Source: Haladaptatus sp. R4
GTDB lineage: Archaea > Halobacteriota > Halobacteria > Halobacteriales > Haladaptataceae
Length of the DNA: 64,000 bases
Direction: 5' to 3'
NCBI RefSeq assembly: GCF_001625445.1
Contig: NZ_LWHG01000021.1
Span: 372,001 to 436,000 of the forward strand
How positions within the stretch are numbered: position 1 is the stretch's first letter; the number at the start of each line of letters is the position of its first letter. Below are positions 11,648-47,074 of this stretch, piece after piece. The translations under genes and the position numbers were made by a program. Below the pieces are notes generated by a model. It was not told the DNA's origin. It made no database searches and saw only the letters and a program-made list of their open reading frames with translations.

Positions 11648-11993
11648 AAAAGGATTTTTCAGCGACGACGATTTTTCGGCGAGTGAGCGGCGCGAGCGCC
11701 GCCCACGAGCGAGAGGCCGGTGACAGGACCGCCAGTAACTGTCATCGGCACAATCGCCAGAAGTGAAATTGTCACAACCGCCAGAAGCGGCTATCGACAC
11801 ACCTGTCAGCTATCAGAAGCCGATTTAACCGCCAGCAATCGCCATTCTCGGCCAGCCACTAGCCGCTAGTACACTCTCCGGAAAATCGAAGATTTTCCGG
11901 GCCAAGGAACCCCCGGAGGGGGTAACGCCGTGCTTTTGGTCCAGATTTTTATCGAGGATCGCAGAGCGACCCTCGCAATAAAAAGGTGGTTCG
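11648..11993. repeat. Repeat family 2, copy 1: spaced ACCGCCAG units, hairpins and conserved GTGCTTTTGGTCCAG element
   Basis: No gene is visible. From left to right the stretch holds a 48-bp segment (11678-11725) repeated in inverted form at 12657-12704; several ACCGCCAG or AATCGCCAG units (11730-11840); a perfect hairpin CCGGAAAATC-GAA-GATTTTCCGG (within 11876-11903) identical to one at 46604-46631; a hairpin ACCCCC-GGA-GGGGGT; then GTGCTTTTGGTCCAG (11930-11944) followed by a stem-loop closed by TTTTTAT/ATAAAAA (11946-11984) and GGTGGTTCG. The stop codon of the TRAM gene (11994-11996) touches its right edge. Confidence 0.85.
11930..11993 (+). ncRNA. Candidate structured RNA/DNA element, copy 1
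   Basis: The conserved flank GTGCTTTTGGTCCAG is followed by a stem: TTTTTAT (11946-11952) pairs with ATAAAAA (11978-11984), CGAGG (11953-11957) with CCTCG (11971-11975), and TCGC (11959-11962) with GCGA (11966-11969), with loop AGA. Then comes GGTGGTTCG. The copy at 46657-46748 has the same flanks but an entirely different inner stem that also pairs. Strand is assigned by the flank direction only. Whether it is transcribed is unknown; it could also be a terminator for the convergent neighbours. Confidence 0.45.
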
Positions 11994-12425
11994 TTAGAAC
12001 TCTTCCTCGATGATTTCGCCGACGGCGAAGTTCGATTTCACTTCCGTGATTTCGACCTTCACGCGTTCGCCGATCTCCGCGCCGGGAACGATGATGACGT
12101 ACCCGCGTTCGACGCGGGCGATGCCATCTCCCTGTTTGCCGATGTCTTCGACTTCGACGTAGCGGATTTCACCGGCTTCGACGGGTGGCTGTGGTTCCGA
12201 CGAGACGGAACTGCCCGTACTCGGTTGCGTCGAAGTCGCGGTCGTTTCTTGTTCTTCGTCCGATTCCTCTTCCGTTTCTCGCGAGATTAGCGCGACACGG
12301 TAGGTTTCTCCCGGTTCGACCGAACCCGTATCGATTTCGCGACGTGGTATCGAGACAACGTATTCGTCGCCGTTGAGAGTAACATCACCGCTGAACAGAC
12401 ACAGGAGTTTATCAGAGATTTCCAA
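11994..12425 (-). CDS. TRAM-domain RNA-binding protein
   Basis: The C-terminal 65 residues form a TRAM beta-barrel: GEIRYVEVEDIGKQGDGIAR, then VERGYVIIVPGAEIGERVKV. Small TRAM proteins are common in haloarchaea and are thought to act as RNA chaperones or cold-shock-like proteins. I chose the TTG start at 12425 (MEISDKLLCLFSGDV...) because a GGAGGT Shine-Dalgarno sequence lies 9 bases upstream and homologues begin at this point. That gives 143 residues; the ATG at 12485 would add a non-conserved 20-residue extension. A Ser/Thr/Glu-rich linker separates the two halves. The gene sits between inverted copies of a 48-bp repeat. Confidence 0.85.
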   Translation of the reverse strand: MEISDKLLCLFSGDVTLNGDEYVVSIPRREIDTGSVEPGETYRVALISRETEEESDEEQETTATSTQPSTGSSVSSEPQPPVEAGEIRYVEVEDIGKQGDGIARVERGYVIIVPGAEIGERVKVEITEVKSNFAVGEIIEEEF

Positions 12426-12732
12426 GGCTCGTAGACCTCCACGTGAAACCAAGTAGTCAACCATTAAAGAATTATCGAACGCCACCGTTTGCTGCCGTTA
12501 GAAGCCGAAATCCACACGATTGGCGCGGGTTTGGGCCTACTTTCGTGAAAACGTCCGAACCAGTAGCTTGCATCATCCCCCTTCCGAAAAACCGGAAATC
12601 CTTCGATAGAAGCGCCAGGGACAGGTAATCGTCCGGTTCGTTGATTTCGGCAGCCGTGTCACCGGCCTCTCGCTCGTGGGCGGTGCTCGCGCCGTCCACT
12701 CGCCGTGAGAAGATCACTACGCCGTGAGAAGA
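12426..12732. repeat. Intergenic stretch with inverted 48-bp repeat copy and 19-bp tandem repeat
   Basis: Bases 12657-12704 are the inverted counterpart of 11678-11725 (about 45 of 48 match), so the TRAM gene is bracketed by an inverted repeat. Directly to the right is a 19-bp unit (CGCCGTGAGAAGATCACT plus one base) in two tandem copies (12701-12719, 12720-12738). The second copy reaches the stop codon of the next gene. The remainder is the TRAM promoter side and shows no gene. Confidence 0.8.
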
Positions 12733-46254: not shown

Positions 46255-46783
46255 GTATCTGCCATTGGAGTCCTCCTACTAAACTACTCCGTCAGACAGA
46301 CATCAGAATTATTATGCTTAAGTTCTATACCGGGCCGGAAGTCGGGTACTGAGACGATCATCATACGTTCTACTCTATCGACTGTTCTACTGTCCCTCGG
46401 AACCTACCACGATCTGATTAGTCCAACAGGCGATGAGTCGTGAGCGACCGTACGGGAGCGGTAGGCCGGTGTCACAACCGCCCAGAAATCTCGCATTGAC
46501 ACAACCGCCAGAGTCAGCAACCGACACAGCCGCCAGTCACCAGAAATTCCATCGAAAGACCTGCGGTCTTTCGAGCCATCAAAATCGCACCACGATTTTG
46601 AGACTCCGGAAAATCGAAGATTTTCCGGGCCGACGACCGACCACCGGGAGGGAGGAGTGCTTTTGGTCCAGCTTTTACAGGGAAGCGACGGCGGTTTCGT
46701 GTCGTTTACGAAACCGCCGTCAACTTCCCGTCGTAAAAGGTGGGTTCGAAAAGCATAATCCGCGCCCTCGCAAACGCCACGGT
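46255..46783. repeat. Repeat family 2, copy 2: ACCGCCAG units, three short hairpins and the GTGCTTTTGGTCCAG element
   Basis: No gene is visible. ACACAACCGCCAG-type units occur at about 46475-46540. Three perfect hairpins follow: TCGAAAGACC-TGC-GGTCTTTCGA (46552-46574), CAAAATCG-CACCA-CGATTTTG (46580-46600) and CCGGAAAATC-GAA-GATTTTCCGG (46606-46628). The last lies in a 28-bp block identical to 11876-11903. Then comes the conserved element at 46657-46748. The left part (46255-46430) is the AT-rich promoter side of the membrane-protein gene; the right end holds the promoter of the DUF5789 gene. Confidence 0.85.
46657..46748 (+). ncRNA. Candidate structured RNA/DNA element, copy 2
   Basis: GTGCTTTTGGTCCAG (46657-46671) is followed by a stem CTTTTAC/GTAAAAG (46672-46678 with 46733-46739), GGGAAG/CTTCCC (46680-46685 with 46724-46729) and a perfect 13-bp helix (46687-46699 with 46709-46721), and then GGTGGGTTCG. 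Flanks match copy 1 at 11930-11993 while the inner stem is unrelated in sequence yet fully paired. It lies 35 bp before the DUF5789 start, so here it could be a 5' leader. Confidence 0.45.
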
Positions 46784-47074
46784 ATGGCCGACGATAACGA
46801 AGACGAGGGACCCGCCGTCGAACTCGGCGACGGTGAACCCGTCGATGGCGCACCTATCGCGCGAATCTCTTCGCGGCTGTTCTGGCCCATTCAGAAGAGC
46901 GAAATCGCGCGCCGGGAAGGAAGCGAGACGATTCGAACGCCGGACGGACCACAGCAACTCGACGCCGTTCTGGAGGACGTCGACATGACGTACTTCCAGA
47001 CCGAGCAGGCATTCACGGGCGCGATTCGCGACGTCATCGGCACGGGTCCGGTCCCGACCGCCGACGATTCGTGA
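46784..47074 (+). CDS. DUF5789-type haloarchaeal small protein
   Basis: The 96-residue acidic protein starts MADDNEDEGPAVELGDGEPV and continues APIARISSRLFWPIQKSEIA with the end YFQTEQAFTGAIRDVIGTGP. The pattern matches a haloarchaeal DUF without known role. Its stop overlaps the GTG start of the CPBP gene (GTGA, 47071-47074), suggesting coupled expression. Confidence 0.83.
   Translation: MADDNEDEGPAVELGDGEPVDGAPIARISSRLFWPIQKSEIARREGSETIRTPDGPQQLDAVLEDVDMTYFQTEQAFTGAIRDVIGTGPVPTADDS

Follow-up and report, generated by a model that had tools for sequence, protein, structure and literature searches.

Transcription in archaea stops at T-tracts. In Haloferax volcanii, such tracts lie a few to tens of nucleotides behind stop codons and tRNA ends, T-stretches gave about 95% termination in a Haloferax reporter, hairpins were present near some termination sites (one of them active), and a hairpin (S12) gave 59% termination in the reporter (PMC7237163). 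Haloarchaea also carry small mobile repeats without a transposase, namely the PATEs, MITEs and SMRs of Haloquadratum; SMRs are 80-110 bp long and their mobilisation is unknown, and SMRs and PATEs are described as making no target duplications and as located in, or derived from, IS605 elements (PMC3119063). REP/BIME sequences, associated with RAYT (Y1, TnpA-like) transposases that the palindromes flank, are short multi-copy extragenic palindromes that follow a single-strand hairpin logic and form tandem arrays. Diversity-generating retroelements have a hairpin close behind the duplicated 3' end of a gene, and their repeat mismatches are confined to adenines.

The window, i.e., the whole 64,000-nt stretch of Haladaptatus sp. 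R4 DNA analysed here, contains two hairpins that belong to a large, apparently undescribed haloarchaeal family of structured elements. The initial annotation had reported a frame common to the two copies, and we found it exactly where it had been placed: both copies begin with GTGCTTTTGGTCCAG (11930-11944 and 46657-46671, sequence read directly), and both contain AAAAGGTGG (11981-11989 in copy 1 and 46735-46743 in copy 2) followed by (G)TTCG. The features considered below are the following.

11878-11922: two more hairpins directly upstream of copy 1, CCGGAAAATC-GAA-GATTTTCCGG at 11878-11900 and CCCCC-GGA-GGGGG at 11910-11922
11930-11989, + strand: copy 1, with the GC-TTTT-GGT frame (contig C21, place 383928-383990)
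11941-11943 and 11987-11989: foot of copy 1, CCA and TGG
11946-11950 and 11980-11984: T-run and A-run of copy 1
11953-11962 and 11966-11975: inner stem of copy 1
11980-11996, - strand: TRAM stop codon (11994-11996), then CGAA-CCACC-TTTTT, the T5 tract coming from copy 1
11994-12482, - strand: gene for a TRAM-domain protein (PF01938), start position putative, with element copies on both sides
12481-12571, - strand: degenerate third copy, upstream of the TRAM gene, 3' end towards the gene
46657-46743, + strand: copy 2, frame as in copy 1, inner stem long and different
46668-46670 and 46741-46743: foot of copy 2, CCA and TGG
46747-46759: CGAAAAGCATAAT, promoter-like, beginning 3 nt past the end of copy 2
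46784-47074, + strand: DUF5789 gene (PF19102), downstream of copy 2

The inner stems do differ, as the initial annotation had stated, but its description of both as fully paired did not hold. In copy 1 a single A-C mismatch is present when the + strand is folded (G-U for the - strand). Each copy also has an internal loop, G[AC]/GG, above its foot, as well as a bulge on the 3' side. The RNA folds of both strands of both copies were better than those of shuffled sequences, with z-scores of -2.3 (copy 1) and -7.9 (copy 2) on the + strand and -4.5 and -8.7, respectively, on the - strand. A relaxed frame pattern (two mismatches or fewer) was found four times in the window, compared with 0.25 expected from shuffling. 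Copy 1 adjoins the end of a gene and its T5 tract is the only one close behind the TRAM gene in the window; T-tracts belonging to the + strand gene upstream of copy 1 are already present at 11655 and 11672. Copy 2 is flanked by divergent genes and ends 40 nt before the ATG (46784) of the DUF5789 gene. The hairpins upstream of copy 1 are part of an array that precedes many copies in the genus, in which the element is often the last in a series of perfect hairpins (11878-11989 here; own-genome copies L030-L057). The array order is GAAAGACC..GGTCTTTC, CAAAATCGC..GCGATTTTG, CCGGAAAATC..GATTTTCCGG, then the variable stem, and degenerate ACACAACCGCCAG repeats precede the arrays in own-genome copies.

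To estimate the size of the family we used a covariance model (R1) made from 15 own-genome copies, with the structure set by hand. Copy 2 was in the training set and copy 1 was not; copy 1 was matched at E 2.3e-7. The degenerate third copy, matched at E 0.0028 in the window search and 0.2 genome-wide, is orthologous to intact copies upstream of TRAM in relatives. A pattern search of the genome (4.9 Mb) gave more than 20 clear copies, and R1 gave 28 at E < 0.01. The search of haloarchaeal genomes that the initial annotation had proposed yielded further copies in 146 of 194 genomes, covering 61 of the 65 genera of the class; 35 of 40 relatives had R1 matches. The annotation had named a lack of further copies and of covariation in a larger set as the outcome that would speak against the element, and the larger set contained both. 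Chance similarity of the two copies was rejected on the basis of the genome-wide copies and the covariation of the foot. Outside the class, within the phylum, there were weak R1 matches alone, one to three per genome and near the threshold. An exact pattern allowing any C/G combination at the foot gave at least 120 loci. Those among the matches listed came nearly all from named haloarchaea (Haloferax, Natrinema, Halococcus, Halorubrum, Halorientalis and others), and a few of the 138 listed copies were from non-haloarchaeal records, some resembling simple tandem repeats. Rfam returned nothing above curated thresholds for the whole window except two tRNAs, and no match at E up to 1 for the copy-1 region; the open-access literature searched contained no description of the element, in agreement with the annotation's view of it as undescribed. 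Most sampled genomes of one genus (g7; G027, G043, G044, G046, G048 and others) are without the element, which sets this genus apart from almost every other. A hairpin resembling the element, with an apparent tRNA 3' end behind it, was also seen in a MAG labelled Woesearchaeota (L093); this may reflect transfer, misbinning or chance.

The family consensus is TTTTGGT-[foot]-G[AC]-TTTT(T)-variable stem-AAAA(A)GG-[foot']. Its pairing is selected, with compensating changes, as the initial annotation had argued from two copies: the feet were complementary in all 138 copies among the matches listed, with the foot pair C-G in 104, G-C in 34 and mismatched in none. The foot triplets were CCA/TGG, GCA/TGC and CGA/TCG, and rarer copies had GAAC/GTTC or CAA/TTG. 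In the R1 training set 16 of 24 pairs showed double changes, a level reached by 0 of 500 shuffles, and sliding the partner by 1-3 columns abolished the covariation signal. Among the matches listed, 119 distinct haloarchaeal cores were compared; the foot was closed in 118, the inner part was better folded than shuffled sequences (median z -2.7), and in 97% the strand starting with TTTTGG had the higher stability. The 5' side carries an invariant, unpaired TTTTGGT, and the inner stems differ between copies yet remain paired. Tandem GA/GA accounted for 136 of 149 2x2 loops among the matches listed (the GA/GG loop of the foot set aside), and at least one such loop was present in 89 of the 119 cores, on the sense strand only; RNAfold favours GA/GA loops, yet almost none were seen on the opposite strand. 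Because the stem is free to change while pairing and G-A loops stay, a single-strand fold is suggested rather than read-out of duplex DNA. A classical k-turn also has tandem G-A pairs, but the adjoining 3-nt bulge was absent from the folds seen. Template-switch repair without selection is possible for perfect stems, but would erase the conserved G-A mismatches.

The element is directional and occupies a fixed orientation at transcription-unit borders. Positions were counted for 104 copies with flanks among the matches listed, with heuristic gene calls near the named loci. In 25 of the 104, the 3' end was -2 to 8 nt from a stop codon or tRNA 3' end on the opposite strand, compared with 1 for the other end; a same-strand stop codon was located 10-60 nt upstream of the 5' end in 34, compared with 2 in the mirrored arrangement; and approximately nine copies ended 33-48 nt before a start codon, i.e., at the promoter. 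T-tracts precede the stem on both strands (runs of 4-8 on the sense strand and 4-6 on the opposite one), and the element has a T-tract shortly after the gene end, as archaeal T-tract terminators do.

At some genes the element is kept vertically while its stem turns over. It ends a few nucleotides before a CGAAAA..TAAT box at the DUF5789 gene in eight of nine genomes of the genus, the ninth having a truncated remnant. It is found directly behind the TRAM stop codon in the own genome (G000), in G001, G002, G003, G004, G005 and G007, and likewise in G015 from another genus, with very different stems among the orthologs; in G006 and G008 the hairpin has been lost and a T6 tract kept. Many relatives have another copy directed towards the TRAM promoter, and neighbouring genes may bear two back-to-back copies ∼350-550 bp apart. 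The TRAM and DUF5789 neighbourhood, to which the initial annotation had drawn attention, is not special, as many unrelated genes carry the element.

The DNA just behind the element repeats the 3' end of the upstream gene in 55 of 110 strict copies among the matches listed vs. 2 of 110 in a reversed control; the two window copies were both checked and are without such flanking repeats. The repeats are variable in length (27-146 nt) and usually start 0-6 nt past the element, and the same genes recur with a tail copy across genera (etfA, for example, in Haloferax massiliensis, Natronoglomus and the own genome). Of 54 cases among the matches listed, 24 have behind the foot three nucleotides that equal three of the gene at a shift of one, and then a single additional nucleotide, which is a pyrimidine in all but one of the 24 (these cases include homologous loci and come from ∼13 gene families). 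For one gene in one genus, three genomes without the element show the stop codon and native flank. A filled site (G130) reads stop codon, 14 nt, element, tail copy, stop codon, then the same native flank, and G056 has a decaying version of it. We concluded from these filled and empty sites that the element plus tail copy was inserted, with a long duplication. Behind the tail copy a second element was absent in 40 of 51 cases among the matches listed, complete in 6 and partial in 5, the partial ones mostly retaining the 5' side only. Simple tandem duplication of gene tail and element would account for some tandem arrays (L204, L142, L161), but it was rejected because it explains neither the 40 cases in which no second element follows nor the native flank that immediately borders the G130 tail copy. 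Mismatches between the two tail copies fell on third codon positions 80 times and on the other two 43 and 22 times, some frames possibly being misassigned; they fit drift after duplication roughly, and horizontal acquisition of the gene ends is not claimed. Tandem arrays of gene tail plus element with near-identical units were seen at L204 (five units of 124 bp), L145, L142, L161, L203 and L191. At L183 and L200, the element directly adjoins a copied tRNA 3' end of about 23 nt, and at L183 a complete tRNA-Pro comes next, at 136 nt.

From these sequence features, we consider the chances about even that the element is a mobile or recombinogenic boundary hairpin acting as a directional T-tract terminator or insulator. 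Transcripts coming from its 5' side would meet two T-tracts, and the stem would then be a pause or roadblock, or would shield the 3' end of read-through RNA, so that read-through is halted just ahead of what follows, a gene entered antisense in the case of copy 1 and a promoter in that of copy 2. The palindrome also supplies the gene on the opposite strand, TRAM in this case, with a T-tract right behind its stop codon; that strand presents CCACC-TTTT directly after the neighbouring stop codon or tRNA end, and termination at copy 1 could thus occur in either direction. Spreading would proceed by insertion or template switching in which the tail of the adjoining gene is copied anew, and no Y1 transposase would take part. 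Three features together, namely the directional placement, a TTTTGGT that is invariant and unpaired, and a T-tract ahead of the stem, suggest that transcripts running in the TTTTGG direction are stopped, and the T-tract kept in TRAM orthologs lacking the hairpin and the positions kept with different stems count for the terminator reading. Against it are the T-runs of 4-6, which are modest and lie before the hairpin in both directions, the own T-tracts of the + strand gene upstream, and the slightly better folding of the - than the + strand in copy 1. Since the T-runs are modest and precede the hairpin, and a hairpin is not known to be required for archaeal termination, T-tract termination alone does not explain the strongly conserved stem and its G-A loops; the G-A stem may have its part in pausing, RNA 3'-end protection or spreading rather than in termination.

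We tentatively extend the terminator reading to a haloarchaeal class of mobile terminators of 60-90 nt, although we lean somewhat against this fuller version. Such elements would insert behind genes by tail re-copying, leaving the 27-146 nt repeat and the junction of 3 nt plus pyrimidine, without a Y1 transposase, and would then be kept across species and genera as directional boundaries with the stem turning over. If true, a class-wide structured element has so far gone unnamed in well-studied model archaea. It would bear on what besides the T-tract defines archaeal transcript ends and on how small transposase-free repeats move, for which the filled and empty sites offer a direct handle.

The multi-copy palindromes, filled and empty sites, tandem arrays and tail duplication would also be expected of a selfish REP-like or MITE-like DNA hairpin, a substrate of a mobilising enzyme or of replication-fork template switching for which gene borders are harmless insertion places. 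The fixed junction (24 of 54, the extra nucleotide nearly always a pyrimidine) points the same way. However, orthologous positions persist across the genus with turned-over stems, and the spacing to stop codons and promoters is very tight. The Y1 transposase (PF01797) was absent from seven copy-rich genomes (G000, G002, G004, G008, G009, G011 and G028), no element was found near 21 Y1 loci of relatives, and 2.9 million viral contigs gave no exact pattern match. We regard a selfish hairpin as possible but rather unlikely.

The G-A loops conserved on one strand only, and the many copies 10-60 nt past a same-strand stop codon, are consistent with an RNA element of mRNA 3' UTRs whose hairpin fixes or stabilises the ends or binds a protein via tandem G-A. 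This is improbable given that the G-A strand is antisense to the adjoining gene in copy 1 and a quarter of copies, and that copy 2 lies upstream of a promoter between divergent genes. A boundary site in double-stranded DNA for a chromatin or replication protein would agree with the unit-border location, the fixed orientation and the invariant, unpaired TTTTGGT; we find it very doubtful, because the stem sequence varies freely given pairing and G-A loops. The initial annotation had suggested a small RNA, a leader or an anti-terminator, to which we attach hardly any probability, even though the structure is selected. Copy 1 comes after a gene and copy 2 before one, no conserved place inside leaders was seen, and genes are faced from both ends of the element. 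Stop codons, tRNA ends and promoters fit a transcription-unit border better than a free-standing small RNA, for which Rfam likewise gave no match, and no support was found for an anti-terminator.

Compared with the Haloferax volcanii terminators, the element is alike in its T-tracts behind stop codons and tRNA ends, and differs in its conserved frame, compensating foot, tandem G-A stem and multi-copy family, which the part of that work considered here does not describe (PMC7237163). It shares with the PATEs, MITEs and SMRs of Haloquadratum a small size and apparent mobility without a transposase, and differs by its repeats of the host gene tail and its gene-border placement; the direct repeats at 55 of 110 copies among the matches listed set it apart from PATEs and SMRs, which have no target duplication (PMC3119063). 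MITEs carry terminal inverted repeats akin to those of a transposon, and a target duplication that is short and of fixed length; in the element, the foot forms an imperfect inverted repeat and the flanking repeats vary over 27-146 nt. The hairpin behind a duplicated gene 3' end recalls diversity-generating retroelements, whereas here the repeat mismatches extend beyond adenines and the tails come from ordinary metabolic genes, etfA among them. Like REP/BIME, the element is a multi-copy extragenic palindrome with hairpin logic and tandem arrays; unlike them, its stems vary freely and gene-tail duplications flank its copies, and REP/RAYT membership was rejected on the absence of a Y1 transposase from the own genome and copy-rich relatives. 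We concluded that the element is akin to terminator-like or REP-like intergenic repeats while being a member of neither.
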